Part shown: piece after piece, positions 1,941 through 19,817 of the stretch
Numbering within the stretch: the stretch's first letter is position 1
How the letters are laid out: each line of letters opens with the position of its first letter
NCBI RefSeq assembly: GCF_016411825.1
Contig: NZ_JAEKMH010000002.1
Location: 1-64,000 of the forward strand
Reading direction: 5' to 3'
Source of the DNA: Devosia sediminis
Lineage (GTDB): Bacteria > Pseudomonadota > Alphaproteobacteria > Rhizobiales > Devosiaceae
Length of the DNA stretch: 64,000 nucleotides
Position numbers and translations under genes: made by a program
The notes under the pieces: generated by a model
Told to the model about the DNA's origin: nothing
Databases searched by the model: none
What the model saw: the letters and a program-made list of their open reading frames with translations, nothing else

Positions 1941-1942
1941 GA

Positions 1943-3461: not shown

Positions 3462-4247
3462 ATGCCGCGCTTTTCCGCCAATCTGTCCATGCTCTATCCA
3501 GAACTGGACTTCTTGGAGCGCTTTGCGGCCGCTGCGGCGGACGGCTTTGCGGCGGTCGAATATGTCGGCGCCTATGACCGGGAGCCGCAGGTATTGCGGG
3601 ACCTGCTCGACCGGCACGACCTCACCCAGGCGCTGTTCAACCTGCCGGCGGGCAATTGGGCGGCGGGTGAGCGGGGGATCGCTTGCCTGCCCGATCGCAT
3701 CGACGCGTTTCGTGAGAGTGTCGATACCGCCATTCGCTATGCCGAGGCGACCCGCTGTAACCAGGTCAATTGCCTTGCCGGCATCGTACCGCCGGGTGTC
3801 GACCGCCAGGCGGCTGAGCAGGTGCTGGTGGACAATTTGCGCCATGCGGCACCGCGCCTTGCCGATGCGGGCATAAAGCTGCTGCTCGAACCGATCAATC
3901 CGCGTGACATGCCCGGCTTTCTCGTCAACTCCACCGCTGACTACGAGCGGATCGCCGCCGAGGTCGGACACAACAACCTCTTCCTGCAGTACGATTTTTA
4001 CCACATGCAGGTGGTGCAGGGAGACCTGCTCAACACCTTCCGGCGCCTGCAGGGACGCATCGCCCATGTGCAGGTGGCTGACAATCCCGGGAGGCACGAA
4101 CCGGGATCGGGTGAGATCAACTATGCCGCTATTTTCGCAGCGCTCGACGCGGCCGGATATGACGGCTGGGTCGGCGCCGAATACCGGCCCCGGGCCGGCA
4201 CCAGCGAAGGGCTTGGCTGGTTCGAGCCCTGGCGCCGACGCCGCTAG
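3462..4247 (+). CDS. hyi: Hydroxypyruvate isomerase family protein (Hyi/OtnI), TIM barrel
   Basis: Predicted aldose-ketose isomerase of 261 residues acting on hydroxypyruvate/tartronate semialdehyde or on 2-oxo-tetronates. It begins PRFSANLSMLYPELDFLERF and carries NLPAGNWAAGERGIACLP, the LLLEPINPRDMPGF strand with the metal-binding Glu, QYDFYHMQ, ADNPGRHEPGSGEINY and GWVGAEYRP, all close to E. coli Hyi from memory of that protein. It stands alone, with repeats upstream and a phnE gene downstream on the other strand; the two genes share their last four bases (CTAG, a stop for both). OtnI activity would fit the four-carbon acid-sugar genes near 49272 and 56701, but distance makes that an inference. 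Confidence 0.88.
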   Translation: MPRFSANLSMLYPELDFLERFAAAAADGFAAVEYVGAYDREPQVLRDLLDRHDLTQALFNLPAGNWAAGERGIACLPDRIDAFRESVDTAIRYAEATRCNQVNCLAGIVPPGVDRQAAEQVLVDNLRHAAPRLADAGIKLLLEPINPRDMPGFLVNSTADYERIAAEVGHNNLFLQYDFYHMQVVQGDLLNTFRRLQGRIAHVQVADNPGRHEPGSGEINYAAIFAALDAAGYDGWVGAEYRPRAGTSEGLGWFEPWRRRR

Positions 4248-5074
4248 ATCAGCCGCGCTCGAATGCGGCGTGAAATGGCGTCGATCACGGCCACGGTGAC
4301 GAGGATCATCAGGATGATGAAGGCCGCTTCCTGCCAGTTGTTGATGCGGATGCGGTCGGAGAGCTGGAGGCCGATGCCGCCGGCGCCGACAATGCCCAGA
4401 ATGGTGGCCGAGCGGACATTGGATTCGAAGAAATAGAGCGCGTGGCTCATCATGACCGGGAAGACCTGCGGGAAGACGCCGAGCCGCACGATGTGGAGTT
4501 CGCCCCCGCCCGAGGCGCGGACGCCCTCGACTGGCTTTCGGTCGACATTCTCGATTGCCTCGGCAAAGAGCTTGCCGAAGACCATGACGTCGCCCACCGC
4601 AATGGCGAGCACGCCGGCAAAGGGGCCGAGCCCGACGGCAGAGACGAAGATCAGCGCCCAGACGAGGCCATCGATGCCACGAAAGGCGTCGAAGAAGCGG
4701 CGGATGCCGAAGTGGAAAACCCAGTTGGGCACGATGTTCTTGGCGCCGAGGAAGCCAAGCGGCAGGGCGACGACGAAGGCGATGACGGTGCCTAGAAACG
4801 CCATTGCCACGGTTTCGAGCATGGCCAGCGTATAGTCCCAGAGCCCGTCGCCCGGCCAGGGCGGGATCATCAGGGTGACCAGCAGCCCGAGCTTGTTGAG
4901 GCCGTTGAGCAAGCGCATGGGGGAAGCGTCGATCCACCAAAGGCCGAAACCGAGCGCGGCGAAAAAGGCGAGCCACAGAGCCCAGTCGCGAAGGCGGTGC
5001 GGCAGGGGGCGCACGAAAAGGCCGGGATGGATGCGCTTGAGGCGGGCAATATCGGCGGGCTGGGCAAGGGTCAT
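4244..5074 (-). CDS. phnE: Phosphonate ABC transporter permease PhnE (importer 1, second permease)
   Basis: Inner-membrane channel subunit, 276 residues, of the phosphonate importer phnC-phnD-phnE-phnE. It has about six hydrophobic segments, and the cytoplasmic coupling loop is AIENVDRKPVEGVRASGGGELHIVRLGVFPQVFP. ESNVRSATILGIVGAGGIG is the characteristic PhnE segment before the last helices. The gene lies 3 bp after the first phnE, so the two subunits probably form a heterodimer. It is the last gene of the leftward phn operon. Confidence 0.93.
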   Translation of the reverse strand: MTLAQPADIARLKRIHPGLFVRPLPHRLRDWALWLAFFAALGFGLWWIDASPMRLLNGLNKLGLLVTLMIPPWPGDGLWDYTLAMLETVAMAFLGTVIAFVVALPLGFLGAKNIVPNWVFHFGIRRFFDAFRGIDGLVWALIFVSAVGLGPFAGVLAIAVGDVMVFGKLFAEAIENVDRKPVEGVRASGGGELHIVRLGVFPQVFPVMMSHALYFFESNVRSATILGIVGAGGIGLQLSDRIRINNWQEAAFIILMILVTVAVIDAISRRIRARLI

Positions 5075-5077
5075 GGA

Positions 5078-5989
5078 TCAGGCGCTCTGCTGAAGGCTGT
5101 GGCCGATGAGGCGATGGCGGATGGTTTCGCAGATGATGTCGATCACCGAGGTGGTGAGGATCAACAGCAGCATGATGGCGGAGATGTCGGTATATTCGAA
5201 CTGGCGAATGGCGACGTAGAGGTCCTCGCCAATGCCGCCGGCACCGACCAGGCCCAGCGCCGAAGCGCCACGGACATTGATCTCGAAGCGCAGCAGAAGA
5301 TAGCTGGCATAATTGGGCAGGGCCTGTGGCACGACGCCAAGGCGCATGATCATCGGCCAGTTGCCGCCCGAGGCGCGGACGCCCTCGATGGGGCCGGGAT
5401 CGACATTCTCGTTGACCTCGGCAAAGAGTTTTCCAAGCGAGCCTGCCGTGTGCACGGCGATGGCCAGAACACCGGCAAAGGGGCCGAGCCCGAAGGCGAA
5501 GACGAAGATCAGCGCAAAGACCAGTTCGGGCACGGTGCGGCAGAATTCGAGCGCGCGGCGGGCGGCAAAATAGATGCCTGAATTCTGCACCAGGTTGCGC
5601 GAAGCGGGAAAGCAGAGAGCAAGGGCGAGGACGCCGCCCAGCACGGTGCCGACAAAGCCCATGAGGATGGTTTCGACCAGGAGGCGCGTCCAGAAGCGGA
5701 GGCCCCAATACCATTCGGCCATGTCGGCGCCGAAATTTTCGAGCGTCAGCGTCGGTAGCGTTCCGGCAATGTAGTTCCAGGCCATGGGGAGGCCCTTGAT
5801 GAGCCCCGGAATGGAAAAGTCGCTGACGGCTACCGAGGCGACCAGCGCCACGAGGAACAGCGCGCCATACAGAAAGGTCCAGTTGCGGCGGGTGAACTGC
5901 TGCTGGCGATAGCGGTCCTCGAAGGAGGTGAGGCGCTCTTCGCGCGTCGTCGAGGACAATCTGCCATTGGTTTGGGTCAGGGTGGACAC
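5078..5989 (-). CDS. phnE: Phosphonate ABC transporter permease PhnE (importer 1, first permease)
   Basis: Inner-membrane permease of 303 residues, GTG start at 5989. The N terminus is a basic cytoplasmic extension of about 45 residues before the first hydrophobic helix (FLYGALFLVALVASVAVSDF). The coupling loop contains NVDPGPIEGVRASGGNWPMIMRLGVVPQALP, and the PhnE-specific RFEINVRGASALGLVGAGGIG follows. It is separated from phnD by about 60 bp containing a hairpin, and sits 3 bp before the second phnE. Confidence 0.93.
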   Translation of the reverse strand: MSTLTQTNGRLSSTTREERLTSFEDRYRQQQFTRRNWTFLYGALFLVALVASVAVSDFSIPGLIKGLPMAWNYIAGTLPTLTLENFGADMAEWYWGLRFWTRLLVETILMGFVGTVLGGVLALALCFPASRNLVQNSGIYFAARRALEFCRTVPELVFALIFVFAFGLGPFAGVLAIAVHTAGSLGKLFAEVNENVDPGPIEGVRASGGNWPMIMRLGVVPQALPNYASYLLLRFEINVRGASALGLVGAGGIGEDLYVAIRQFEYTDISAIMLLLILTTSVIDIICETIRHRLIGHSLQQSA

Positions 5990-6049: not shown

Positions 6050-6970
6050 TCAGTTGCCGTTCTTGCGGCGCTCTTCGGCGTTGAATTCGGTGATCGCCAC
6101 CACGTCGAGATAGTCTTCGTGCTTGGCTTCGACATAACCGCTCGAGGTGCCGTTGCTGTAGGTGGCGAAGCCCTCAGGGTCCTTTTCCGGGAAGGCCATC
6201 AACGCGGCCTTGAACTCGTCCTGCAATTCCTGCGGCAGGGTCGTGTTGATCATGACCGGGGTGTTGGGGATGACCGGCGAGGTCCAGATGATACGGACGG
6301 AGCCGGGCTCGATCAGGCCCTTCTTTTCCATGGTCTGGATGTTGCCGGCAGTCTCGTTGCGCCAGTGGGTGGCGACGGCTTCGAACGTGCCGTTGACCAG
6401 GGCCATAACGGACTGCTCGTGGCCGCCCGAAAAGGCGACTTCGCTGAAATACTCGTCGGCCGAGGTCTGGAGTTCGGTCGCCAGGTAATAGGAGGGGACG
6501 GCATAGCCCGAGGTCGAATTCGGATCGGCAAAGGCGAAGGACTTGCCCTTGATGTCTTCGAGGCTCTGGTAGGGGCTGTCGGCGCGCACGGCGATGACGG
6601 AATAGTAGCCGAGATTACCTTCGGCATCGAGCGTCACGGCGACCGGGGCGATATCCTCGCCCATGATCTTGCGGGCCAGGGCATAGGCGGCCGGGCCGAC
6701 CGAGGCGATCTGCACATGGCCGGCGCGCATGGCTTCGATGACGGCGGCATAGTCGGTGCCGCGGATCATCTTGACCGGCACGCCCAGCTCGCGGCTGAGA
6801 TAGTCGGCATAGGGCTGGTTGCGGGCAATGGCGTCGGTCTCGTTCTCGCCCGAGGAAATGCCGATGGTGAGTTCGGGGAACTCGGCGCGCCAGTCCTGGG
6901 CCAGGGCCGGGGAGACGAGGGCGAGCGAAGCCAGCGCGGCCACAAGGCCACGACGCGTCAGGGTAAGCAT
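6050..6970 (-). CDS. phnD: Phosphonate ABC transporter substrate-binding protein PhnD (importer 1)
   Basis: Periplasmic receptor for alkylphosphonates, 306 residues. The signal peptide is RRGLVAALASLALVSPALAQ. PhnD-family features are LTIGISSGENETDAIARNQPYADYL near the mature N terminus, DYAAVIEAMRAGHVQIASVGPAAY, and KSFAFADPNSTSGYAVPSYYL, a loop that in this family contacts the phosphonate group. It is encoded between phnC and phnE. The second PhnD (17795) differs strongly in sequence, so the two receptors probably differ in ligand range. Confidence 0.94.
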   Translation of the reverse strand: MLTLTRRGLVAALASLALVSPALAQDWRAEFPELTIGISSGENETDAIARNQPYADYLSRELGVPVKMIRGTDYAAVIEAMRAGHVQIASVGPAAYALARKIMGEDIAPVAVTLDAEGNLGYYSVIAVRADSPYQSLEDIKGKSFAFADPNSTSGYAVPSYYLATELQTSADEYFSEVAFSGGHEQSVMALVNGTFEAVATHWRNETAGNIQTMEKKGLIEPGSVRIIWTSPVIPNTPVMINTTLPQELQDEFKAALMAFPEKDPEGFATYSNGTSSGYVEAKHEDYLDVVAITEFNAEERRKNGN

Positions 6971-7002: not shown

Positions 7003-7821
7003 TTAGTGCGCCGTCTCCATCTGTCGTTGGCCGGTGTGGCCAGTCGCAGCGATGGTCGAGGTCAGGCTCTCGTCCACGGCTGATTGGGTGTCGTCACCAT
7101 AGATCTGCTGGATCATGGCGCTGGTGAGCTGCGCCGGCGTGCCGTCGAAGACGACATGGCCATGGGCCATGCCGATGATGCGGTCGCAATAGGCGCGGGC
7201 CGCGTCCAGCGTGTGCAGATTGGTGATGACGGTGATCTTGTCCTGCTGGTTGATGGTGCGCAGGGCCTCCATCACCAGCCGCGCATTGCGCGGATCGAGC
7301 GAGGCGATGGGCTCGTCGGCAAGGATGATGCTGGGCTTCTGCATCAGGGCGCGGGCGATGGCGACGCGCTGCTGCTGGCCGCCCGAAAGGGTATCGGCGC
7401 GCTGCAGGGCCTGCGACAGAAGGTCGAGCCGGTCGAGCGCCATGGCCGCATTGGCGCGATCCGCCGCCGAAAAATGCTTGAACATGACCGGCAGGGTTCC
7501 GGCGCTGCCGATCCGGCCGATCAGCACATTGGTGAGCACGTCGAGCCGGTCGACGAGGTTGAACTGCTGGAAGATCATGGCGCAGCGGGCGCGCCAGGAT
7601 CGGAGGTCATTGCCCTTGAGACTGCCGACATTGACGTCACCGGAGGTGATCCGGCCCTCGTCGGCAGTGGCCAGCCGGTTGATCAGGCGGAGAAGCGTCG
7701 ACTTGCCGGCGCCGGACCGACCGATGACCCCGACCATCTGGCCGGGGACGAAACTGGTCGACACGTTGTTGACGGCAATGGTGTCGCCAAAGCGCTTGGT
7801 GACGTTTCTCAGCTCCAGCAT
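7003..7821 (-). CDS. phnC: Phosphonate ABC transporter ATP-binding protein PhnC (importer 1)
   Basis: ATPase of importer 1, 272 residues. Walker [10 protein letters not shown] is at 34-42, the Q-loop is [14 protein letters not shown], the signature [19 protein letters not shown], and Walker B IILADEP with IASLDP. The [14 protein letters not shown] and FQQFNLV segments are typical of PhnC. The start at 7821 has AAGGGGTGG upstream. The gene begins 54 bp downstream of phnM; the gap and the end of phnM carry a Pho-box-like array and a PhnF-type operator, so phnC-D-E-E can probably be transcribed from its own promoter as well as by read-through. Confidence 0.94.
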
Positions 7822-7866: not shown

Positions 7867-7906
7867 ATGACAGCGTTAACTCATTCGAATGACACGTCCG
7901 TGACGC
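7867..7906 (-). promoter_or_regulatory. Pho-box-like array ahead of phnC, partly inside phnM
   Basis: On the minus strand the heptamers GCGTCAC (7900-7906), GTGTCAT (7889-7895) and CTGTCAT (7867-7873) resemble the PhoB heptamer CTGTCAT/C. Their starts are 11 and 22 bp apart, which is the helical phasing PhoB binding requires. The last copy is a perfect match. The array overlaps the last codons of phnM and the PhnF-type palindrome at 7880-7893. Activation by PhoB under phosphate limitation is inferred. Confidence 0.7.
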
Positions 7907-9063
7907 TGCAGATCGAGCCTGCCATCGGCATGAACGAAACGGCCGCGCGACAGCGTGGCATGCACCTGGCCGACACCGGTTTCCGAGGCGACGAGCAGGT
8001 CTGCGCGAAGCCCGACGCGGATTTCGCCACGGTCTTCGAGCCCGAGAGCTTTGGCCGGATTGAGTGAGGTGAGCCGCGCCGCACCGGCCAGGCCATCGGG
8101 ATCGGTCTGGGCCAGCACCAGCACCGCCGGCAGCATGGCGGAAGGGTGGTAGTCGGCGGCGAGCAGGTCCAGCACGCCGGCTTCATGCGCCGCGCGGGCC
8201 GACAGATTGCCCGAATAGGACTGGCCGCGCAGCGCATTGGGGGCGCCCATGGCATTGAGCATGCCGCGCTTGTGGGCCTCCTGCGCCGCTTCCAGCGTCA
8301 CCGGGAATTCCGAAATATTGGCGCCGAGGCTATCCATCAGCGCCACCTTTTCGACCGTGTCGTCGTCATGGCTGGCGACCGGTACGCCGTGAAGCGCGCA
8401 ATATTGGGTAATGGCGCGCAGGGTCGCGGTCATGTCGCCGGCGGTTGCCTGCCGGTCGCGAATGCGCTGCTGCAGGTTTTCGTGAGCCGCCTCGAGCGAA
8501 ATGCCCTTGGTCTTGGAGATATTCGTGGCCTGCAGCTCGAGGTCGCGATACTGCCCCTGGCCCGGCGTGTGGTCGCAGAGCGAGACCAGGTCCACCGAGC
8601 CTTCGCCCACGAGTTCCTTCACCACCGACAGAGCCGCCGGAAAGGTCACCTCGAACCGCGCGTGGACGCGGTGGTCGATCAGCAGGTTCGGTCGCGCCGC
8701 AACGACGGCGCGGATCATCTCGCTGGTGAAGTCGTAGCTGCGCATATGGCCATAGGTGGAGCCGGGCGCGAAGCTCAGAGAGGCATAGGCGGTGGTGATG
8801 CCCGCGGTCGCGAGCTTCATGTCGAGATCGCGCAGGCCCATGGACATGGGCATGCGCACGCCGGGACGCGGCTCGATCTCGCGCTCGATCATGTCGCCAT
8901 GCATGTCGATCATGCCGGGCAGCAGCAAGAGACCATTACCCTCGACCTCGGCATGCGCCACGGGGGCCTCGCTGATCTCGGCGATCAGCCCGTCCTCGAT
9001 GCGCAGGGCGCCGCGCTCGATGACGCGGTCGGCAAGGACAATGCGGAAATCAGAGAGCCACAT
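7876..9063 (-). CDS. phnM: PhnM, alpha-D-ribose 1-methylphosphonate 5-triphosphate diphosphatase (operon copy)
   Basis: Amidohydrolase-fold enzyme that removes pyrophosphate from the ribose-triphosphate intermediate of the C-P lyase pathway. The 395-residue protein carries LLLPGMIDMHGDMIEREIEP, the metal site normally written H-x-D-x3-E, followed by RPGVRMPM, and PVASHDDDTVEK further on. It closes the phnF-G-H-I-J-K-L-M operon and overlaps phnL by 14 bp. A second phnM starts at 14495 with a canonical HTDHLE site. This copy is the more divergent of the two (HGDMIE) and may prefer another substrate or act on another phosphonate-derived triphosphate. Confidence 0.93.
   Translation of the reverse strand: MWLSDFRIVLADRVIERGALRIEDGLIAEISEAPVAHAEVEGNGLLLLPGMIDMHGDMIEREIEPRPGVRMPMSMGLRDLDMKLATAGITTAYASLSFAPGSTYGHMRSYDFTSEMIRAVVAARPNLLIDHRVHARFEVTFPAALSVVKELVGEGSVDLVSLCDHTPGQGQYRDLELQATNISKTKGISLEAAHENLQQRIRDRQATAGDMTATLRAITQYCALHGVPVASHDDDTVEKVALMDSLGANISEFPVTLEAAQEAHKRGMLNAMGAPNALRGQSYSGNLSARAAHEAGVLDLLAADYHPSAMLPAVLVLAQTDPDGLAGAARLTSLNPAKALGLEDRGEIRVGLRADLLVASETGVGQVHATLSRGRFVHADGRLDLQRHGRVIRMS
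7880..7893. promoter_or_regulatory. PhnF-type operator inside the 3' end of phnM
   Basis: CTCATTCGAATGAC contains the perfect 12-bp palindrome TCATTCGAATGA (7881-7892). The same palindrome occurs upstream of phnF (14340-14351) and, with one change, at 14422-14433. Its position on the Pho-box array before phnC suggests repression of the transporter genes by PhnF. Confidence 0.72.
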
Positions 9064-9781
9064 CTTCGCGTTCCGTCGTTTCGTCAGCCACCACGCGGGT
9101 GCTGAGGTTGATTTCGCGGTCGATCAGGGTTTCGACATCGCCCGGATGGTGGAAGACGCCGATAATGGCGACGCCCTGACGCTTGAGTTCGGCCAGACGG
9201 CGCAGCAGCGCGGCACGGGCGCCGGCATCGAGCGAGGCCGTGGGTTCGTCGAGCAGAAGCAGCTTCTGCGGCAGGATCAGGGCGCGGGCGAGGTTCACTT
9301 TCTGCTGCTCGCCACCCGAGAAGGTGGATGGATAGGCGCGCCAGAGTTCGGGGCGGACGCCGAACTGGTCGAGCCAGTGCCGGGCCTGGTCCAGCGCCTC
9401 GGCCCGTGACACCCCAGCCAAGAGCAGCGGCTCGGCGACGATGTCCTGCGCCGCGACGCGCGGGCGGGCATTGAGGAATTGGGTGACGAAGCCGATTTCC
9501 TCGCGGCGGAGGAGGGCAATATCGACATCGGCGGCGTTGGCGAGGTCGATCTCGCCATGATTGGAGCGATAAAACACATGGCCGCCGACCGGGAGGTAGG
9601 AGCGCCAGATGGTGCGGAGAAGCGTCGACTTGCCGGCGCCGTTGTGGCCGCGCAGCAGGATGAATTCGCCTTCGAACAGGTCGAAGCTGACGCCTTCGAA
9701 AGCGTGCAGCATGCTGTCGAGGTGATACATGCGGAAGGTCTTGGTGAGACCCTGGACGCGCAGGAGGGGCGTGGATGTCAT
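9050..9781 (-). CDS. phnL: PhnL, ABC-type ATPase subunit of the C-P lyase complex
   Basis: Soluble ABC-family ATPase of 243 residues. In characterised systems PhnL stacks with PhnK on the PhnG-H-I-J core and is not a transport protein. It has Walker A GHNGAGKST, the signature FSGGEQQKVNLARAL and Walker B LLLLDEPTASLD. The [21 protein letters not shown] and FVTQFLNARPRVAAQDIV segments are typical of PhnL. It lies 9 bp after phnK and overlaps the start of phnM by 14 bp. Confidence 0.94.
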   Translation of the reverse strand: MTSTPLLRVQGLTKTFRMYHLDSMLHAFEGVSFDLFEGEFILLRGHNGAGKSTLLRTIWRSYLPVGGHVFYRSNHGEIDLANAADVDIALLRREEIGFVTQFLNARPRVAAQDIVAEPLLLAGVSRAEALDQARHWLDQFGVRPELWRAYPSTFSGGEQQKVNLARALILPQKLLLLDEPTASLDAGARAALLRRLAELKRQGVAIIGVFHHPGDVETLIDREINLSTRVVADETTEREDVAL

Positions 9782-9790: not shown

Positions 9791-10612
9791 TCAGAGTTTC
9801 GCGTGGACGAGTTGCTGGGTATAGGCGTGCTGCGGGTCCTGAAAGACCTGGTCGGCGAGGCCCTGTTCCACCACTTCGCCATGACGCATGACCATGACGC
9901 GGTCGGCCATGGTGCGGATGACGCCGAGGTCGTGGCTGACCAGCACCATTGTGATCTTGCGGTCGCGCTGGAGCCTTTTGAGGGTATCGAGCACCAAAGC
10001 CTGCACCGAGACGTCGAGGCCGGTGGTCGGTTCGTCGAGCAGCAGCAGAGCCGGTTCGAGCGCGATGGCCTTGGCCAGTTGCACGCGCTGCTGCATGCCG
10101 CCCGAGAGTTCGATCGGGCGGGCATCCATGCGGTCGAGCGGAAATTCGGAGGCGTCGAGCGCCTCGCGTGCCTTGTCGCGCAGCACGTCGAAGCTGCGCT
10201 CGCCAGCGATGAGAAGGCGCTCGGCGACATTGCCGCTCGAGGAATGTTTCATCAATAGCCCCAGGTGCGGGTTCTGGTAGACGATGCCGATATGGCGGGC
10301 GCAGAGCATGCGGCGCTCATAGCGGGCGAGATCGAAGAGGTTCTCGTTCTCGCGGCCGGGCAGGCGCAAGGTGTAGTCGCCGGTGTCGGGAGTGTCCTCG
10401 AGGTTCATCATCCGCAAGAGCGTCGACTTGCCCGAGCCGCTTTCCCCGACAATGCCCATGACCTCGCCGGGATAGACTTTCGCGTCGACATTGCGCAAAG
10501 CGCGCACATTGCCGAAGCGCTTGGAAATGCCGCTCATGGTGAGCAGCGGCTCGGCCCGCATCAGGCGGGGTTCGGCGCGCTCCAGCGCCGGAAGTCCCAG
10601 ATCAAGGCTCAT
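9791..10612 (-). CDS. phnK: PhnK, ABC-type ATPase subunit of the C-P lyase complex
   Basis: 273-residue ATPase that docks onto PhnJ in the C-P lyase complex. Walker A is GESGSGKST, the signature LSGGMQQRVQLAKAIALEP, and Walker B LLLLDEPTTGLDVSVQALVLD. The segment YQNPHLGLLMKHSSSGNVAERLL marks it as PhnK rather than a dipeptide-importer ATPase. Its ATG overlaps the phnJ stop in ATGA. Confidence 0.94.
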   Translation of the reverse strand: MSLDLGLPALERAEPRLMRAEPLLTMSGISKRFGNVRALRNVDAKVYPGEVMGIVGESGSGKSTLLRMMNLEDTPDTGDYTLRLPGRENENLFDLARYERRMLCARHIGIVYQNPHLGLLMKHSSSGNVAERLLIAGERSFDVLRDKAREALDASEFPLDRMDARPIELSGGMQQRVQLAKAIALEPALLLLDEPTTGLDVSVQALVLDTLKRLQRDRKITMVLVSHDLGVIRTMADRVMVMRHGEVVEQGLADQVFQDPQHAYTQQLVHAKL

Positions 10613-11523
10613 GCGGAATACTCCCCGTTGCGATACCAGGTCTCGCCGATTTCCGTCGGCGCGCCCTCGGTCTTGTTGAGCGCCTTGATACCGAGATTGC
10701 TGTCCGAAACCTCGAACACCGAGCCGCCGCCATCCTGGGGCAGTTCGTTCATGAAGAAACCCTGGACGCCCGAGCGGCGGCAGGTGAGGTCGGCATGGTC
10801 CTCGACCAGATAAGGACGGTCGGAGAAAACCAGCGGTTCGACCCTGGTATAGGGCGGCACGGCATGGAGGCGCTTTTCGCGGCCAGCCGAGAGGAAGGTC
10901 AGGTGCCTGGCCATGTTGAGCTTGGGCACGTCCCAGCGCGGAATGGGCGAGGGGGTCATGACATGCCTGCCATTGACCATGGAGGGATACGATGCACCCT
11001 GCATGATGCGCCCTTTGCGCACGATCTGCTCATAGAGCGTCAGCCACAGCTTGCCGTAATCGGCATCGGCATGCATCTGCCGGGCGATGGAAATGTTGGG
11101 CTCGACCCCGCGCAGCGGTTCCGGGTTCGGCACCTGCAGCACGAGGATCTGGTCCTCGCGCATCATTTCCTCGGGAATGCGGTGGCGCGACTGCACGATG
11201 CTTGCGCCCAGCGTGTCCCAGGTTTCCGAAGCGCCGGAGACGCGGGAGATGAAGCGGCGGATCGAGGCGGCGTTGACGCCGTCATCGGCGCCCTGGTCGA
11301 TGACCTTTACCACCGAGGTGGGATTGACGAGGGTCAGCGTCACCTGGAGGCCGCCAGTCCCCCAGCCGCGCGCCATTGGTACTTCGCGGCTGGCATAGGG
11401 CATCTGGCAGCCCGGCACGGCGATGGCCTTCAGCATCTTGCGCCGCAATTCGCGCTTGGCCGAGGCGTCGAGGAAACCGTAGCTGGTCGCTGCCCAGTCC
11501 TTGGTCAGGGTTGCAAGGCTCAT
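10609..11523 (-). CDS. phnJ: PhnJ, C-P lyase catalytic subunit, lacking the canonical cysteines
   Basis: Homologue of the enzyme that cleaves the carbon-phosphorus bond of ribose 1-methylphosphonate 5-phosphate. Family landmarks are intact in its 304 residues: AIAVPGCQMPYASREVPM with the radical glycine (Gly38, equivalent to E. coli Gly32), GWGTGG, VIDQGADDGVNAASIR, QSRHRIPEE and GREKRLHAVPPYTRVEPLVF. The C-terminal region that in E. coli holds Cys241, Cys244, Cys266 (4Fe-4S) and Cys272 (thiyl radical) reads DLTCRRSGVQGFFMNELPQD and then VFEVSDSNLG. Aligned on the shared D..GG..F..SD pattern, none of the four cysteines is kept. The whole protein has only two cysteines, Cys39 and Cys248. The flanks stay in frame and the gene overlaps phnI and phnK by ATGA, so decay or frameshift is unlikely. 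Confidence 0.93.
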   Translation of the reverse strand: MSLATLTKDWAATSYGFLDASAKRELRRKMLKAIAVPGCQMPYASREVPMARGWGTGGLQVTLTLVNPTSVVKVIDQGADDGVNAASIRRFISRVSGASETWDTLGASIVQSRHRIPEEMMREDQILVLQVPNPEPLRGVEPNISIARQMHADADYGKLWLTLYEQIVRKGRIMQGASYPSMVNGRHVMTPSPIPRWDVPKLNMARHLTFLSAGREKRLHAVPPYTRVEPLVFSDRPYLVEDHADLTCRRSGVQGFFMNELPQDGGGSVFEVSDSNLGIKALNKTEGAPTEIGETWYRNGEYSA

Positions 11524-12614
11524 AGCGCGGGTTCCTCTTCGGGTTCGGCGACGTAAGTCTCGCCCTTGGCTTCGGCGGCGGCCTTCTTGGCCTTTGCGTC
11601 GCGCATGGCATCCAGGATCGACTGGAAGGTGACGTAGTGCGGCAGCTTGAAGTGAATGCAGAAGCCCGAGGCTTCCACGCTTTCCGTGTGGTAGAGATAG
11701 AACTCTTCATGCACGGCCGAACCGACCGGTGCCTCGTCGGAATTGAGGTCGAGCGTCGCGGCGGCGATGACCTTCACCTCGTTCCAGCCGAAGGTGGCGG
11801 CAAAGCCGAGTTCGAGATAGCCGCCCTTTTCCTTGGACGTCACTTCCGCCTGGCTGACGCGGACGCGCCCGGCTGAAAACTCGGTGCCGCGGGGGTGGCG
11901 GACGACGACATTGGCTTCGCCGATGCGGAGTTCGTTGACGGTCGGGTGGGCATTGCCATAGCCGCGCATGGCGGCATAGCCGAGCGCCAGCACGCCACCG
12001 GTTTCGGCGCGCGCGAGGCTTTGCAGGCGGTGGGCGCGCGAGGCCGGGAACAGCAGCGGCTCGCGCGTCAGGTCGGGAATGTCCTCCGGCGCCACGTCCG
12101 AGGCATTGGCCGGGGCGACGAGGCCCTGCTGGCGCTGCCATTCGGCGAGCGAGGGCTGCTGCGCCGGGGCGGGGCTTGCTGCCTTGTCAACCTCGGGCGG
12201 GGCAAAGGGCTTGCCTTCGAGCACGTCGGTCGCCAGCACGCGGTGGGAATAGTCAAGCGTCGGCCCCAAGATCTGCCCGCCCGGAATATCCTTGAAGGCG
12301 GCCGAGATGCGGCGCTGGGTCAGGATTTCGTGCTGCTGCACCGGCCGCGATATGGCGAGGCGCGGCTGGGTGGTGCGCCAGGCGCGCAGCACCAGCACGG
12401 CTTCGGACAATTCGCCGCCGGTCTGTGCCAGGGCCAGGGCCGCCAGCTCCTCGTCATAGAGCGAGGCTTCGCCCATCACCCGGTCGATGAGATAGGGCAT
12501 GGTGGAGCGGATGGTCTCGACGCGCGCGGCATCGATGGTGCCGAGGTCCTGGCGGAAGAGGCGTTCAGCCTGTTCGATGGCCTTTTCGCCACCACGGGTT
12601 GCTACATAGGCCAT
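11520..12614 (-). CDS. phnI: PhnI, ribosylating subunit of the C-P lyase complex
   Basis: Core subunit that, with PhnG, PhnH and PhnL, transfers the ribose triphosphate of ATP onto the phosphonate. The 364-residue protein starts MAYVATRGGEKAIEQAERLF, typical of PhnI, and contains TQRRISAAFKDIPGGQILGP, LDYSHRVLATDVLEGKPFAPPEVD and a C-terminal YLYHTESVEASGFCIHFKLP. It is directly adjacent to phnH and overlaps phnJ. The last 25 or so residues (AKKAAAEAKGETYVAEPEEE) are charged and probably disordered. Confidence 0.95.
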   Translation of the reverse strand: MAYVATRGGEKAIEQAERLFRQDLGTIDAARVETIRSTMPYLIDRVMGEASLYDEELAALALAQTGGELSEAVLVLRAWRTTQPRLAISRPVQQHEILTQRRISAAFKDIPGGQILGPTLDYSHRVLATDVLEGKPFAPPEVDKAASPAPAQQPSLAEWQRQQGLVAPANASDVAPEDIPDLTREPLLFPASRAHRLQSLARAETGGVLALGYAAMRGYGNAHPTVNELRIGEANVVVRHPRGTEFSAGRVRVSQAEVTSKEKGGYLELGFAATFGWNEVKVIAAATLDLNSDEAPVGSAVHEEFYLYHTESVEASGFCIHFKLPHYVTFQSILDAMRDAKAKKAAAEAKGETYVAEPEEEPAL

Positions 12615-13145
12615 TTACAGCACCTCCACCTTGGTCGAGCGCGGAATGCCGATGACTGAGGTGCCATCGACGAAGAAGATGTCAAAGCCTTCGGGGTAGA
12701 TGCAGAGCATGTCCCGCATGGCCCAGAAGCCGGGCGATACGGCGAGGGTCACGTCCTTGCTGCCGTTGATGCCGGGACCCGTCAGCCGCAGGCGCTGGCC
12801 CTGATGGGCGCAGGCAAGGACGAGAGTCGCGCCGTCATCGGGATAAAGCGCACTGCCGCAATTGAGCTCCGCAATGTCGGCACTGTCGAGCTCGGACAGG
12901 AACACATGGTCGGCAGCGCTGACTTTCTCCGCCAGCATCGCGCCGCTGGCGACGATGCGCGCCCGCATCTCGGGCGTGTCGGCATAGGCGGCGCATTCGA
13001 GATCAACCAGGGTTTCGACGATGGCGCCGAAACCGGCTTCGGGCAGCGTACGCACATCGCCGGGGCGCGACAGGGACCACATCAGCGCTTCGAACGTGGC
13101 ATTGGCGCGCAGTTCGACGGCGTCGGGGGGAGCGACGGTCAGCAT
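12615..13145 (-). CDS. phnH: PhnH, C-P lyase complex subunit
   Basis: Small core subunit (176 residues) of the PhnG-H-I-J complex. The fold resembles PLP-dependent transferases but has no PLP site. Family features are ATFEALMWSLSRPGDVRTLP near the N terminus, RLRLTGPGI and a C-terminal FFVDGTSVIGIPRSTKVEV. Its start overlaps the phnG stop by one base (TGATG), and phnI follows without a gap. It has four cysteines (51, 96, 112, 148), more than the E. coli protein as I remember it. Confidence 0.93.
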   Translation of the reverse strand: MLTVAPPDAVELRANATFEALMWSLSRPGDVRTLPEAGFGAIVETLVDLECAAYADTPEMRARIVASGAMLAEKVSAADHVFLSELDSADIAELNCGSALYPDDGATLVLACAHQGQRLRLTGPGINGSKDVTLAVSPGFWAMRDMLCIYPEGFDIFFVDGTSVIGIPRSTKVEVL

Positions 13146-13588
13146 CAGAAAGTCTCCATTTCGACGCGGGTGGCTTCCACCTGCCGCATGCGCTCGGCAT
13201 CGGCATGGGCCTGGTGCGCCTTTTCCTCGACAAGGAACTGCGCGGTGGCGGCGTCCTCGCCACGGGCCGCGACGGAGAGGTCGATGACAGCCATGGCCAT
13301 GGCACGCTCGAGGTCGCGTCCGGTGACCATGCCATAGCCGGTGTGTCCCGCGGGATCGGTGATATGGGCTTCGCTCACCAGCACTTCACCGAGGTGAAAG
13401 TCGACATTCTGGACGGTGTCGCGCATCGGCACCATGACGAGGCCGGTGCGGTTGGCGACCACGGAAATCTCGCCCATGTCCGTGAGCAGGGTTTCGGCAT
13501 GGTGCTTGAGGCGCTCGGGGCGGGCGCGGGCGAGGATGTCGAGCATCTCGCCATGCGCGGAGCCTCCGGATGGGGTTTCATTGAACAT
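13145..13588 (-). CDS. phnG: PhnG, C-P lyase complex subunit
   Basis: 147-residue core subunit of the C-P lyase complex. The ATG at 13588 is chosen over an in-frame ATG at 13627 because AAAGGAA precedes it at the right distance. It contains LARARPERLKHHAETLLTDM, RTGLVMVPMRDTV, FHLGEVLVSEAHI and GYGMVTGRDLERAMAMAVID, all characteristic of PhnG. It overlaps the end of phnF by 11 bp and so is translated with the regulator. Confidence 0.93.
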   Translation of the reverse strand: MFNETPSGGSAHGEMLDILARARPERLKHHAETLLTDMGEISVVANRTGLVMVPMRDTVQNVDFHLGEVLVSEAHITDPAGHTGYGMVTGRDLERAMAMAVIDLSVAARGEDAATAQFLVEEKAHQAHADAERMRQVEATRVEMETF

Positions 13589-14330
13589 CGCTGTTCCTTT
13601 CGGTGACCATTGGCTGGTCGGTTTCAAAGGTGAACTGGACGCGGTCGCCGGCCCACACGGCTTCGGAAAAGCCGATGGGATTGCCGTCGAGATCCGCGTC
13701 GATTTTCTGCACCACCAGCACCGACTGGCCCGGCCGCAGCATCAGCATGCTGGCCTCCTGCTCCGAGGCGAGCCGGGTGAAGACCGTGGTGCGCTGGCGG
13801 CGGTAGTCGAGGATGCCGTAGGTCCGGTAGACCTGGGTGATGGACTCTTCCCCGCGCCGCCTTTCGGGCAGGTCGGGAAAACGGGTGGCGTCGTGATAGG
13901 CCCAGCCGATGGAAATCGGCAGGTCATTGGCAAAGCCGCGCCAGGAGCGCGCAAAGACCGGGGCGTCCTTGTCGATCCCCAAAGCCGCGGCGACACGGCC
14001 GCTGGCCGGCAGCTTCATTTCCGCCAGCGTTTCGCCCGAAGCGGTGAGACCCTGGCTCATCAGGTTCTCGTGCCAGCGGGTGCGGGTGCCGATGACGTAG
14101 TTGAGGAGCGGGGCGCGCTCGACGAAAGTGCCGCGCCCATGCTCGACGCGCAACTTGCCCTCGCCGACCAGCACCGCCAGCGCCTTGCGCAGCGAATGGC
14201 GGCGCACGCCGTACAGCACGCACAATTCCGGCTCGGAAGGCAGCCGCGTATCGGCCGCCAACCGCCCCGAGGTAATCTCTTCGCTGATCCGGTCCCGGGT
14301 GTCTTCCCAGGAATGTCCATGGCTTCGCAT
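13578..14330 (-). CDS. phnF: PhnF, GntR/HutC-family repressor of the phn genes
   Basis: Transcription regulator of 250 residues and first gene of the leftward operon. An N-terminal winged helix-turn-helix (RISEEITSGRLAADTRLPSE, YGVRRHSLRKALAVLVGEGK) is followed by a UTRA ligand domain that includes LPISIGWAYHDATRFPDL and GQSVLVVQKIDADLDGNPIG. UTRA regulators in phn operons sense phosphonates or pathway intermediates. Two palindromes with TCATTCGAATG lie just upstream, the nearer one 8 bp before the start codon, so PhnF most likely represses itself and both divergent operons. Confidence 0.93.
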   Translation of the reverse strand: MRSHGHSWEDTRDRISEEITSGRLAADTRLPSEPELCVLYGVRRHSLRKALAVLVGEGKLRVEHGRGTFVERAPLLNYVIGTRTRWHENLMSQGLTASGETLAEMKLPASGRVAAALGIDKDAPVFARSWRGFANDLPISIGWAYHDATRFPDLPERRRGEESITQVYRTYGILDYRRQRTTVFTRLASEQEASMLMLRPGQSVLVVQKIDADLDGNPIGFSEAVWAGDRVQFTFETDQPMVTERNSDVQ

Positions 14331-14372: not shown

Positions 14373-14390
14373 GTGACACTGAAATGACGG
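14373..14390 (-). promoter_or_regulatory. Pho-box-like repeat of the leftward phnF-GHIJKLM promoter
   Basis: On the minus strand CCGTCAT (14384-14390) and GTGTCAC (14373-14379) are spaced by four bases (TTCA), giving the 11-bp period of PhoB boxes (consensus CTGTCAT-n4-CTGTCAC). Each half differs from the consensus by one base. A -10-like TAGAAC follows downstream. Confidence 0.72.
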
Positions 14391-14441: not shown

Positions 14442-14459
14442 CTGTCGTCGGCCTGTCAC
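14442..14459 (+). promoter_or_regulatory. Pho-box-like repeat of the rightward phnM-phnN promoter
   Basis: CTGTCGT (14442-14448) and CTGTCAC (14453-14459) are spaced by CGGC. The second heptamer is a perfect match to the PhoB consensus and the first differs by one base. It lies 35 bp before the start codon of the second phnM, consistent with a short leader. Confidence 0.75.
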
Positions 14460-14494
14460 AGAGCATGAGTAGGGGATGGCAAAGGAGACACGCA

Positions 14495-15643
14495 ATGACT
14501 GCCATCGGCCTCGACCAGACCACGCTCACCAATGCCCGCATCGTCCTGGGTGACCAGGTGCTGGAGGGCGCGATCGAGATGGCGGGTGGCGTCATCACCG
14601 ATATCGGTTCGGCCAGCTCGCGCGGCACCGATCTCGAGGGCGATTTCCTCATCCCAGGTCTCGTCGAGCTCCACACCGACCACCTCGAGACCCATTATGC
14701 ACCGCGTCCGAAAGTGCGCTGGCATCCGGTCGCCGCCGTGCAGGCGCACGATGCGCAGATTGCTGCGTCCGGCATCACCACGGTTTTCGACGCTATCCGC
14801 GTCGGCATCGACGAACATGCCGACATGGGCGCCGCCGAGTTGCGCATTCTCGCCGATGCGGTCACGGCAGGGGTCGAGGCGCGGCGCCTGCGCGCCGACC
14901 ATTTCATCCACCTGCGCTGCGAAGTGTCGGCGCCCGATTGCCTTGAGGCTTTCGAGGGCATTATGGACCATCCCCTGGTGCGCCTTGCTTCGCTGATGGA
15001 TCACGCACCGGGCCAGCGGCAGTTCGCCAATCCCGACGCCTATCGCGCCTATTACCAAGGCAAGCTCAAGATGAGCGATGCGCAACTGGCTGAATTCATC
15101 GCCCGCCGGACGCTGGAATCGATCAGCTATTCCGACCGCCATCGCAAGGCACTGGCCGCGCTCTGTCATGCCCGCGGCATTGCGCTGGCGAGCCACGACG
15201 ACGCCACCGCAGCCCATGTCGATGAATCGCTCGAACTCGGTATCCGCATCGCCGAATTCCCCACCACGATGGAAGCGGCGCAGGCCTCGCGCGAGGCCGG
15301 GCTTTCCATTCTCATGGGCGGGCCCAACGTGGTGCGCGGTGGCTCGCATTCGGGCAATGTTTCCGCGCGTGACCTGGCTGCTGCGGGTCTCCTCGATATC
15401 CTCTCCTCCGACTACATTCCCTTCTCCATGCTGCAATCGGCCTTCTGCCTGGTCGATGAAGTGGCGGGCGTCGATGTGCCCCAGGCCATCAGCCTCGTCA
15501 CCAAGCGGCCCGCCGAGGCGGCGGGGCTCGACGATCGCGGCGAGATCGCCCTGGGCAAGCGCGCCGACCTGGTGCAGGTGCGCATCGAGGATGGCGTGCC
15601 GATCGTGCGCACCGTCTGGCGGCAGGGCAGGCGGGTGCTATGA
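14495..15643 (+). CDS. phnM: PhnM, alpha-D-ribose 1-methylphosphonate 5-triphosphate diphosphatase (second copy)
   Basis: Second PhnM paralogue, 382 residues. The ATG at 14495 is chosen because AAAGGAGA lies 7 bp before it; an upstream ATG at 14465 would start within the promoter. The metal site is the canonical form, IPGLVELHTDHLETHYAPRP then KVRW, and LASHDDAT, FPTTMEAAQASREAGLSILM, GGPNVVRGGSHSGNVSA and LSSDYIPFSMLQSAF follow. It is more like textbook PhnM than the copy in the phnF-M operon. It overlaps phnN by ATGA and is transcribed away from phnF. Confidence 0.94.
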   Translation: MTAIGLDQTTLTNARIVLGDQVLEGAIEMAGGVITDIGSASSRGTDLEGDFLIPGLVELHTDHLETHYAPRPKVRWHPVAAVQAHDAQIAASGITTVFDAIRVGIDEHADMGAAELRILADAVTAGVEARRLRADHFIHLRCEVSAPDCLEAFEGIMDHPLVRLASLMDHAPGQRQFANPDAYRAYYQGKLKMSDAQLAEFIARRTLESISYSDRHRKALAALCHARGIALASHDDATAAHVDESLELGIRIAEFPTTMEAAQASREAGLSILMGGPNVVRGGSHSGNVSARDLAAAGLLDILSSDYIPFSMLQSAFCLVDEVAGVDVPQAISLVTKRPAEAAGLDDRGEIALGKRADLVQVRIEDGVPIVRTVWRQGRRVL

Positions 15644-16191
15644 CCGGCACCTTCGTCGCCGTCGTCGGCCCCAGCGGCGCCGGCAAGGACAGCGTCATCA
15701 ATTTTGCCCGTGATTGCCTCGTGGACCAGGTCGTGGTGGTGCGCCGCACCGTCACCCGCGATGCCGATGGCGGCAGCGAGGATCACGACAGCCTCTCGCC
15801 CGCAGCCTTTGCCGCCGCCGAACGGGACGGACAGTTCGCGCTCTCCTGGGAAGCGCATGGCCTCTGCTATGGCCTGCCTATTGCGCTGGACGACGATCTT
15901 GCCGAGGGGCGGGTCGTCATCGCCAATCTCTCCCGCGCCGTCCTGCCGAAACTGCTTGCGCGCTACCCCACGGCGCTGGTGGTGGAAGTGACGGCCGAGC
16001 CCGAGATCATCGCCCGGCGCCTCGCCGGTCGCGGTCGCGAGGGCGGCGAGGAGATCAGGCGCCGCATGGAGCGTGGTGCCGGTTTCCACCTGCCTTCAAG
16101 CACGGTGCAAATCGACAATTCCGGCGCTCTCGATCTTGCCGGCAACCGCTTCGTTGCCCTGCTGCGCGACATCTTGCGCCTTCCCGCCTGA
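15640..16191 (+). CDS. phnN: PhnN, ribose 1,5-bisphosphate phosphokinase
   Basis: 183-residue P-loop kinase that converts ribose 1,5-bisphosphate to PRPP, the exit of the C-P lyase pathway into nucleotide metabolism. Walker A is GPSGAGKDS, VRRTVTRDADGGSEDHDSLS is the guanylate-kinase-like acceptor region, and AGRGREGGEEIRRRMERGA holds the lid arginines. It overlaps phnM by ATGA and the hexapeptide transferase follows after 10 bp. No phnP (cyclic phosphodiesterase) is present in the window, so that step must be encoded elsewhere. Confidence 0.94.
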   Translation: MTGTFVAVVGPSGAGKDSVINFARDCLVDQVVVVRRTVTRDADGGSEDHDSLSPAAFAAAERDGQFALSWEAHGLCYGLPIALDDDLAEGRVVIANLSRAVLPKLLARYPTALVVEVTAEPEIIARRLAGRGREGGEEIRRRMERGAGFHLPSSTVQIDNSGALDLAGNRFVALLRDILRLPA

Positions 16192-16201
16192 GGATTTTCC
16201 G

Positions 16202-16819: not shown

Positions 16820-16820
16820 A

Positions 16821-16849
16821 TAGTCATGGAACCGTCACCCAAGTGTAAT
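16821..16849 (+). promoter_or_regulatory. Pho-box-like array before the second phnC
   Basis: TAGTCAT (16821-16827), CCGTCAC (16832-16838) and GTGTAAT (16843-16849) recur every 11 bp. They match the PhoB heptamer at 5, 6 and 5 of 7 positions. The array lies 56 bp before the phnC start. No PhnF-type palindrome is present here, so this importer may respond to phosphate only. Confidence 0.58.
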
Positions 16850-16866: not shown

Positions 16867-16905
16867 GCCCTAGGTCTGCCGCAGTTCAACGACCGGGGCA
16901 CACCC

Positions 16906-17733
16906 ATGCTGAAGATTTCGCACGTTACGCGACGTTTTGGTGACAAGATCGCCGTCGACGACGTGACGCTGGAAATCCCGCACGGCCAAATGGTGGGTAT
17001 CATCGGCCGCTCCGGCGCCGGCAAGTCGACCCTCCTGCGCATGATCAACCGTCTTAACGACGTGTCCTCCGGCTATATCGAATATGACGGCGTGAAGACA
17101 TCCGAGCTGCGCGGCCAGGACCTGCGCAACTGGCAGCGCGACTGCGCCATGATCTTCCAGCAGTTCAATCTCGTGCCGCGCCTCGACGTCATCACCAATG
17201 TCATGCTCGGGCGCCTCAACGGCCGCAACGGAATGCTGAACCTGCTGCAGCTCTTTTCCGCCGAGGAGCAGTACGAAGCCCTTCAGGCGCTCGAGCGCCT
17301 CGACATCGCCCAGACGGCGACCCAGTGGGCTCAGACCTTGTCCGGTGGCCAACAGCAGCGCGTCGCCATTGCCCGGGCCCTGATGCAGAAGCCCAAGATG
17401 ATCCTGGCCGACGAGCCCATCGCTTCGCTCGATCCACGCAATGCCCAGATCGTCATGGACTCGCTGCGCGACATCAACAGCGAAGGCATCACCGTCATCA
17501 CCAACCTGCATACGCTCGACACCGCCCGCGCCTATTGCGAGCGCATTGTCGGCATGGCCCAGGGCAAGGTGGTGTTCGACGGCACACCCGACGAGCTGAC
17601 CACCGATGTCGCTCGCTCCATCTACGGCGCCGATGGTTTGAAGGAAGCTTTTTCGGAAGCCATGACCTCGACCTCGATCGCGCCTGTCCAGTTCCTGCCG
17701 CGTACCCCAAGCAACGCCCAGCAGGCTCCCTAA
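16906..17733 (+). CDS. phnC: Phosphonate/phosphate ABC transporter ATP-binding protein PhnC (importer 2)
   Basis: 275-residue ATPase of the second phn-type importer. Walker [10 protein letters not shown] is at 34-42, with [33 protein letters not shown] and [12 protein letters not shown]. It is clearly paralogous to the phnC at 7003. The following binding protein and two permeases match the arrangement of rhizobial PhoCDET, which is reported to carry phosphate as well as phosphonates; the assignment to that group is by order and similarity only. Confidence 0.93.
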
Positions 17734-17794
17734 GTCATTCGGCTTCTCCCTGTCGCCGAAAGGCCCAATCCCGCGTCACCAAAGGAGACTTCCC

Positions 17795-18703
17795 GTGTCC
17801 GCGATCCGTAAACTGCTCCTCGCCTCCGTCGCTCTGTCCATGTCCACCGCTGCCTTCGCCCAGGACGGCCTCGTCCTGCGCATCGGCCTCGATGGTGGTG
17901 AAAACGAAGCCGACCAGCTGCGTCGCTCCGAATGCGTCGCCGAGCCGCTGAAGGCCGCTACCGGCGCCACCGAAGTCCAGTTCTTCCCCTCGCCGGACTA
18001 TAACGGCATCATCCAGGGCCTGCTCGGCGGCACCATCGACATCGCCATCATGGGCGCCTCGTCCTACGCTGCCATCGAACTGCAGAGCCCCGACGCCGTT
18101 GACCCGGTTCTCGTCGCCCAGCAGGCCGACGGTTCGACCGGCTACCACACGATCATGGTCGCCCGTTCGGATTCGGGCATCACCGACCTGGCCTCGACCG
18201 AAGGCAAGAAGCTCGGCTTCGCCGATCCGGACTCGACCTCGGGCTACCTGATCCCGAACGTTGCCCTGCCGGCTGACCTCGGCAAGTCGATCGAAGAATT
18301 CTACGCTGAAACCGGCTTCGGTGGCGGCCACGAAAACCTCGTTCTCGGCGTCCTCGACGGCACCTGGGATGTCGGCACCACCTTCGGTTCGGGCCAAGGC
18401 GAATTCTCGGAAGGCTACACTTCCGGCAACCTGCGCATCATGGTCGACAAGGGCATGCTCGACATGGACGACCTGGTCGAAGTCTGGCAGTCGCCGATCA
18501 TCCCGAATGGCCCGCTGATGGTCTCGAACAGCCTCGCTCCGGAAGTCAAGCAGCAGGTCACCGACATGTTCATGGCCCTGCCGGAAACCGATTTCGAGTG
18601 CTTCGACGCCTTCACCGCCGGCGGCTACACCAAGTTCGTCGAGGCCGACAAGGCTCTCTACCAGACCATCATCGACGCCCGTCGCTCGGTCATCGGTAGC
18701 TGA
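17795..18703 (+). CDS. phnD: Phosphonate/phosphate ABC transporter binding protein PhnD/PhoD (importer 2)
   Basis: 302-residue periplasmic receptor with signal peptide LLLASVALSMSTAAFAQ. The mature protein starts GLVLRIGLDGGENEADQLRR and keeps SPDYNGIIQGLLGGTIDIAI, GASSYAAIELQ, LGFADPDSTSGYLIPN and GFGGGHENLVLGVLDGTWDV. The two cysteines, in RRSECVAEP and TDFECFDAF, may form a disulfide. It lacks the RGTDYAAVIEAM segment of PhnD1, which suggests a different ligand, possibly phosphate or phosphonoacetate-like compounds. Confidence 0.92.
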   Translation: MSAIRKLLLASVALSMSTAAFAQDGLVLRIGLDGGENEADQLRRSECVAEPLKAATGATEVQFFPSPDYNGIIQGLLGGTIDIAIMGASSYAAIELQSPDAVDPVLVAQQADGSTGYHTIMVARSDSGITDLASTEGKKLGFADPDSTSGYLIPNVALPADLGKSIEEFYAETGFGGGHENLVLGVLDGTWDVGTTFGSGQGEFSEGYTSGNLRIMVDKGMLDMDDLVEVWQSPIIPNGPLMVSNSLAPEVKQQVTDMFMALPETDFECFDAFTAGGYTKFVEADKALYQTIIDARRSVIGS

Positions 18704-18747
18704 TCTGCCCTGGCTGTGGTGACGTCACCACGGCCTCCCCATACGCG

Positions 18748-18822
18748 GTGTCATCCCGGCGAAAGCCGGGATCCATCCTGAGATCTCAAGATGGGCCCCG
18801 GCTGTCGCCGGGGTGACATCGG
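18748..18822. repeat. Palindromic element between the second phnD and phnE
   Basis: Two hairpins, CCCGGC-GAAA-GCCGGG (18755-18770) and CCCCGGC-TGTC-GCCGGGG (18796-18813), are flanked by GTGTCATC and GTGACATC-like arms, so the whole element is also an imperfect inverted repeat. Elements with the core TCATCCCGGCGAAAGCCGGG are widespread in bacterial intergenic regions. Here it may stabilise the phnD transcript. Confidence 0.75.
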
Positions 18823-18844
18823 GTTTGTGGAGACTACAAGCCAA

Positions 18845-19816: not shown

Positions 19817-19817
19817 C

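Follow-up and report, generated by a model that had tools for sequence, protein, structure and literature searches.

The phnJ gene at positions 10609 to 11523 (minus strand) of a 64,000-nucleotide stretch of Devosia sediminis DNA (contig NZ_JAEKMH010000002.1, positions 1 to 64,000; here called the window) encodes a PhnJ that has kept only one of the four cysteines of the carbon-phosphorus (C-P) lyase subunit of Escherichia coli. This Cys-poor PhnJ belongs to a real clade and is the product of neither chance nor sequencing error. We consider the chances about even that the clade is a separate functional subfamily, which lost three cysteines apparently once and works in the PhnGHIJKL core without a PhnJ-bound 4Fe-4S (iron-sulfur) cluster. 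At the level of sequence, the analysis shows the losses themselves, a single clade, a predicted PhnJ fold, retention of the pocket residues and of the PhnI histidines, purifying selection, a conserved operon that includes an importer and PhnM, Pho-box-like sites, and genomes in which this is the lone PhnJ.

The 304-residue open reading frame (ORF) product scored 374.5 bits against the Pfam PhnJ profile (PF06007; cut-off, 25), and its top relatives in the PDB were the E. coli PhnJ chains 4xb6_D (E 5e-80) and 7z15_D (E 7e-80). Its predicted fold was that of E. coli PhnJ, and the gene lies between phnI and phnK within a phn operon. No NCBIfam model matched the window PhnJ or PhnI in a scan run without a canonical control. 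An earlier reading of this DNA from its sequence alone (the sequence-only reading) had described a PhnJ with the family landmarks yet without the canonical cysteine set, as we also found, and its count of two cysteines, Cys39 and Cys248 (codons at 11407-11409 and 10780-10782), was borne out by the ORF translation. We aligned the protein to E. coli PhnJ through cyanobacterial-type PhnJ (CxRC) and Thermus PhnJ (RCRRTG), beside canonical PhnJ. Cys248 then corresponds to Cys241, Ser251 (10771-10773) to Cys244, Val272 (10708-10710) to Cys266 and Gly278 (10690-10692) to Cys272. The earlier assignment of these four positions to Thr, Arg, Val and Gly was correct for Val and Gly and had slid by one residue at the other two; Cys248, which had been placed one position off the first ligand, is that ligand, retained. 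The remaining three of the four are lost, so a three-cysteine 4Fe-4S site cannot form in PhnJ, as the sequence-only reading had argued. PMC9947105 places the four E. coli cysteines, as a putative 4Fe-4S site, some 30 Å away from the radical glycine, and in PMC7916636 Cys241, Cys244 and Cys266 are the cluster residues and Cys272 is the one that attacks phosphorus. The radical glycine, Gly32 in E. coli, is Gly38 in the window protein.

The same losses recurred throughout the relatives of this protein. Cys244, Cys266 and Cys272 were absent in 90/90 distinct Cys-poor sequences, in 0/44 canonical rows and in 0/31 rows of a third type described below; locus L077 (the same gene as L048) was omitted from these distinct-row counts, from the 124-row tree and, like L072, from the comparison of residue conservation between clades. 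Among the 90, the C266 position held V (55), L (19), I (7), A (5), M (3) or T (1), the C272 position held G (87) or A (3), and the last 90 residues had no CxxC. With duplicates included (111 rows), C241 was Cys in all 111, C244 was S in 109 and T in 2, and Gly32 was kept in 111/111. The pocket residues for ribosyl-phosphate (Arg107, His108, Gln124 and loop 47-50), named, like PhnI His219/328/333, as for E. coli in PMC9947105, were invariant across the clade rows counted. The sequence-only reading had proposed a family alignment to look for a clade sharing both the cysteine loss and a conserved Gly-Cys pair; the loss and the glycine were shared, whereas Cys39 was not universal (Cys in 103/111 rows, Tyr in 6, Ser in 2). 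This position is Tyr or Ser in loci L044-L047 and Tyr in Thermus. Cys39, which had been noted beside the radical glycine, is not a fixed replacement, and we rejected it as a general answer for the thiyl. The ratio of nonsynonymous to synonymous substitution rates (dN/dS) of phnJ in the clade was about 0.03-0.05, indicating strong purifying selection.

The best 120 of 7678 scored homologs were 67-100% identical to the window PhnJ, 119 of them at least 87%; all 120 had Cys248, Ser251, Gly278 and either Val or Ile at position 272, and 113 had exactly two cysteines in total. An order-wide sample of 397 genomes gave a PhnJ match in 222; in 16 of these a match reached 70-100% identity, and the closest one after them stood at 54%. 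At the class level the trait is uncommon, given that only 2 of 385 genomes matched at E 1e-100, one being the window's own genome. Genome contigs yielded 545 stretches with a PhnJ relative, all types counted. The top 80 of these, at 75-95% identity, came from Devosia, Nitratireductor, Rhizobium, Agrobacterium, Paracoccus and many Rhodobacteraceae. Genomes G305 and G195 had three PhnJ matches each (loci L071, L072 and L171 in G305; L073 in G195); L072 lies about 15 kb away from the Cys-poor copy of G305 and is a canonical-side sequence on a long branch. A PhnJ match in G038 (contig 1, 3300715-3301529) was in two abutting pieces, perhaps through a frameshift, and that of L061 (G379) contained a TGA.

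A tree of 124 rows resolved three groups (Cys-poor, canonical and cyano-type) with Shimodaira-Hasegawa-like approximate likelihood ratio test (SH-aLRT) support of 98 to 100; it included 48 of the 90 distinct Cys-poor rows, and its cyano-type rows were every fourth of P0121-P0240 plus L048. Two major PhnJ clades and four conserved cysteines were described in PMC11978286, and the Cys-poor clade would be a third major clade beside them. Our cyanobacterial/Methylotenera type (cyano-type; our own label) corresponds by its members to the second of those two. Together with haloarchaeal PhnJ, it forms the group neighboring the Cys-poor clade in the unrooted tree built without the C-terminal region (below), and the residues that the two have in common include Glu25, Tyr43, Arg196, Pro230 and Arg250. 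It differs in keeping all four cysteines and in having Phe for Trp48 (each in 31/31 rows); in this same sample, position 33 was His in 6/31. Canonical PhnJ (E. coli type, PF06007; PDB 4xb6, 7z15-7z19) resembles the Cys-poor protein in its fold as predicted, Gly32, Arg107/His108/Gln124, loop 47-50 and its operon partners G-H-I-K-L-M, and differs from it in having Cys241/244/266/272, all four in 44/44 rows.

A plasmid search recovered Thermus thermophilus HB8 pVV8 and seven further Thermus plasmids with PhnJ 57-60% identical to that of the window. Both Thermus PhnJ sequences examined lacked Cys244, Cys266 and Cys272 and had one cysteine each, with the motifs RCRRTG and YEVSD or YEISD. The pVV8 protein (NC_017767.1; 60.5% identity) falls in the same clade as the window PhnJ; its system differs in having Tyr at the Cys39 site, Ala at the PhnI Cys319 site and a LacI-type regulator gene where the window has phnF. 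The Thermus plasmid operon runs phnC-D-E-G-H-I-J-K-L-M. The description of pVV8 by Ohtani in 2012 reportedly treats the phosphonate genes, and we claim no growth result from it. Enrichment of pVV8 in phosphonate metabolism genes is described in PMC5529391, and according to PMC7694296 many laboratory derivatives have lost this plasmid. The PhnJ proteins of Haloferax, Haloarcula, Mesobacillus, Arthrobacter and Methylibium kept their cysteines. In a tree built without the C-terminal region, the Thermus and alphaproteobacterial Cys-poor rows formed one group (22 versus 35 rows; support, 99/96), suggesting that Cys-poor PhnJ in Alphaproteobacteria and Thermus apparently had one origin. Arthrobacter was omitted from this tree for its very long branch, so the single origin applies to the tree without that row, and, as the tree is unrooted, we infer loss of the cysteines rather than gain. 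Plasmids NZ_CP029209.1, NZ_CP035515.1, NZ_CP080526.1 and CP091033.1 (locus L195), from Nitratireductor, Haematobacter, Mesorhizobium and Sinorhizobium hosts, carried PhnJ at 75-91% identity. By that identity these PhnJ proteins are probably Cys-poor, as was the one in the Sinorhizobium plasmid operon, the sole one of the four read. Cys-poor PhnJ has probably spread by way of plasmids.

The Zn-site histidines of PhnI are conserved (His223, His321 and His326 in the window for E. coli His219, His328 and His333). Cys319, adjacent to the Zn ligand His321, was Cys in 84/84 alphaproteobacterial clade rows, compared with Val 55, Leu 6, Cys 2 and a gap in 1 of 64 comparison rows. The two comparison rows with Cys were, by their sequence, the two G397 loci (cyano-type), and the 120 PhnI proteins nearest to that of G397 had 57 Cys, 61 Ala, 1 Val and 1 Thr at this position. 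Given this Cys/Ala mixture and the Ala in Thermus, the residue is not tied to the loss in PhnJ, and we rejected it as a compensating gain. The sequence-only reading had also suggested that PhnH supplies the cluster; its cysteines were poorly conserved in the clade (n=88: C51 0.91, C148 0.51, C96 0.27, C112 mostly Ala), and the suggestion was not supported. A new metal site made of PhnJ His243 and Cys248 was rejected as well, since His243 is invariant in alphaproteobacterial rows and absent in Thermus.

The complete phnGHIJKL operon that the sequence-only reading had recognized is present and is longer than stated, running phnF-G-H-I-J-K-L-M plus phnC-D-E-E. All of its genes are on the minus strand: phnF, a GntR/UTRA regulator (13578..14330); phnG, with an assumed ATG start (13145..13585); phnH, with four cysteines in the window copy that are not conserved (12615..13145); phnI, with the three Zn-site histidines (11520..12614); phnK (9791..10612) and phnL (9050..9781), both ATP-binding cassette (ABC) ATPases with intact Walker motifs; phnM_a, the operon's own phnM, of the NF011988 type (7876..9063); the transporter ATPase gene phnC_a (7003..7821), named by translation and position, in line with the phnC annotated at that position in L195; phnD_a, for a phosphonate-binding protein (6050..6970); and the permease genes phnE_a2 (5078..5989) and phnE_a1 (4244..5074), named by translation and position. 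PhnD_a was called phosphonate-binding by TIGR03431, above its cut-off, and by its nearest solved relatives. Across 80 Cys-poor loci, some on contigs that end early, the GHIJKL core was found in 76, phnM in 79, phnF in 76, phnC in 75, phnD and phnE in 72 each, a hexapeptide transferase gene in 51 and phnN in 5. At the edge of the window (106-2749), further ABC transporter genes look nitrate/sulfonate/taurine-like, as named from their translations alone.

Pho-box-like sites were scored out of 14 positions against a Pho-box consensus. In the window, one such site (11/14) faces the Cys-poor operon (14373..14390, minus strand), and a second (12/14) faces the plus-strand genes (14442..14459). Sites of at least 11/14 were present upstream of phnF in 38 of 81 stretches, which came from 84 loci given and include the window and a few species twice; the background rate was 0.9% in random genomic stretches and 0.6% in shuffled ones. 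The 15 best begin some 48-75 bases upstream of where phnF is inferred to start. At canonical promoters, such sites preceded phnG in 6/13 and phnF in 0/18.

On the plus strand, back to back with this operon, are phnM_b, of the canonical-locus type (14465..15643; start at 14465 or 14495), phnN, encoding ribose 1,5-bisphosphokinase (TIGR02322; 15640..16191), a hexapeptide transferase gene of phn loci (TIGR03308; 16190..16819), and the transporter genes phnC_b, phnD_b, phnE_b1 and phnE_b2 (16906..21170), of which the C and E genes were named by translation and position and phnD_b scored 254.5 against TIGR03431, just below the cut-off of 261.1. Canonical Devosia loci (L165, L167, L168 and L169) run phnM-phnN, phnF, phnGHIJKL, hexapeptide transferase, phnC-D-E-E, and the window genes from 14465 to 21170 have this order minus phnF-L. 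The same back-to-back layout occurred in G024, D. marina and D. indica, and in D. subaequoris and L083 only phnN and the transferase gene remain beside the Cys-poor operon. No second PhnJ was found in the window's genome, whose sole PhnJ is the Cys-poor copy. The canonical core seems to have been lost in the window lineage, its accessory genes left alongside the Cys-poor operon, a point absent from the sequence-only reading.

Cys-poor PhnJ stood alone in 6 of 42 genomes, as judged by score, and was accompanied by canonical PhnJ in 36; these genomes, mostly isolates, stand behind 42 of the 80 loci. D. marina L53-10-65, D. subaequoris DSM 23447 and D. indica IO390501 each had a single PhnJ match, of the Cys-poor type. 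In the family of Pelagimonas, 147/295 genomes had a PhnJ match; G563 alone had a single full match at low score, and G645, G721 and G724 had PhnJ in pieces only. G563 encodes a Cys-poor PhnJ (TCARSG, FELSD), in an operon with DUF1045 and phnN on its flanks. Of 11 distinct lone-copy genomes, 8 had phnN within 10 kb (G000, G004, G008, G010, G024, G034, G461 and G563), D. elaeis (G316) had it about 12 kb away, and G241 and G264 had it on another contig. Among the 36 genomes that also have canonical PhnJ, none had phnN near the Cys-poor operon, some neighborhoods ending at contig ends. The eight lone-copy genomes with phnN nearby represent at least three lineages (Devosia, Paenochrobactrum and G563), and most of them are related. 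DUF1045 may stand in place of PhnP. It was found in 2/97 neighborhoods (a set including duplicates and L072 and L077, neither Cys-poor) and in 83/101 relatives, some of them lacking PhnJ, so it is not diagnostic, and we rejected the idea that it marks a cyclic-phosphate product. The window's genome has a separate DUF1045-PhnM-PhnN set on a different contig (L163; G000 contig 10, 287000-304000).

The importer, the Pho-box-like sites and phnN suggest a role in phosphorus scavenging. Under phosphate starvation, the importer would take up a phosphonate-like compound, PhnI, PhnG, PhnH and PhnL would couple it to ribose, and PhnM would trim the ribosyl product. Phosphorus could then be released at the PhnI-PhnJ histidine site as a ribose phosphate usable by PhnN, in a step that would need neither a 4Fe-4S cluster nor a Cys272 thiyl on PhnJ. 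Speculatively, the ribose 2-OH may attack phosphorus in this step by a nonradical route, and the group expelled would be a more stable leaving group than methyl anion; such a demand might narrow the range of substrates, which could be why most carriers also keep canonical C-P lyase. That C-P bonds are broken at the PhnI-PhnJ metal site with neither an iron-sulfur cluster nor a thiyl cysteine on PhnJ, a second chemistry on the C-P lyase scaffold in a subfamily that spans phyla and took over from the canonical core in some Devosia, is a possibility that we put forward tentatively. Several points weigh against a working, cluster-free subfamily. Cys-poor PhnJ may not do the whole job alone, given its company in 36/42 genomes. 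The lone-copy genomes are mostly related Devosia, so the phnN association comes from few independent lineages, and PhnN also turns up in two genomes that lack PhnJ (G001 and G003), making its presence weak evidence. Curated PhnP was above cut-off in 0/24 genomes, and 43/81 stretches had no Pho-box-like site of at least 11/14. The structure model of PhnJ has low confidence at residues 41-60 and 131-160, the pocket loop included, and the substrate of the complex would be assigned by PhnD homology only.

The outcome could still be that of an ordinary C-P lyase, in which a separate activating enzyme, encoded elsewhere in the genome, carries the cluster and acts on Gly32 to allow the same radical cleavage, or in which the C-terminal cysteines of E. 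coli are structural and not catalytic. Pyruvate formate-lyase uses such a separate activating enzyme. The invariance of Gly32 agrees with this, as does the 30-Å distance that already separates the cluster site from the radical glycine in the canonical structure (PMC9947105, PMC7916636). We regard it as rather improbable: no CxxxCxxC occurred among the 194 left-over ORFs in the operon spans of the 80 loci, a search that did not extend to the rest of the genomes; Cys241 is the sole PhnJ cysteine common to all rows including Thermus, which leaves no obvious thiyl residue in PhnJ; and PhnI Cys319 is Ala in Thermus. Alternatively, the complex may have kept its ribosyl-transfer front end and free phosphorus from another substrate, a P-N, P-S, P-O or activated C-P compound. 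The dedicated importer with its Pho-box-like sites, the retention of pocket residues while cysteines were lost and the frequent presence of canonical PhnJ in the same genome all suggest as much, but PhnD_a is phosphonate-binding by model and by its nearest solved relatives, and we hold this option to be rather improbable too.

That same co-occurrence, together with the loss of three catalytic cysteines, would also fit a PhnJ that is a dead scaffold, in a complex making ribosyl phosphonates that the canonical PhnJ of the same cell cleaves. This seems very unlikely to us, given that some genomes have no other PhnJ and yet maintain the operon under strong constraint and that, in the window lineage, it is the canonical core that looks deleted and the Cys-poor one that was kept. 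A decaying gene, or an error of sequencing or alignment, has nothing in its favor but the missing cysteines. The sequence-only reading had raised an error masking C-x2-C and C-x5-C; the pattern is common to 90/90 distinct relatives, and with the low dN/dS this explanation deserves almost no credence.

Our full-text literature search, which mostly did not reach subscription papers, found no earlier report of Cys-poor PhnJ. An additional phn operon in Rhizobium is described in PMC7840833, and Devosia phosphonate genes were surveyed in PMC6981132; the accessible text of the former does not remark on the cysteines, nor does that of the latter note a Cys-poor PhnJ. A Sulfitobacter with C-P lyase is reported to make methane (PMC5649143). 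PhnJ is a marker gene for aerobic methane release from methylphosphonate, and metagenomic surveys count phnJ as one gene (for example, as KEGG K06163 in PMC8774927, and in PMC6852614), so a class without the catalytic cysteines could distort such counts. The question can be tested with culturable lone-copy strains and with Thermus thermophilus stocks with and without pVV8. The Cys-poor clade is a natural experiment on the 30-Å gap between the proposed cluster and the radical glycine, and, with carriers in soil, sea and hot springs, either these organisms have another route for breaking the bond or the textbook mechanism of C-P lyase needs revision.
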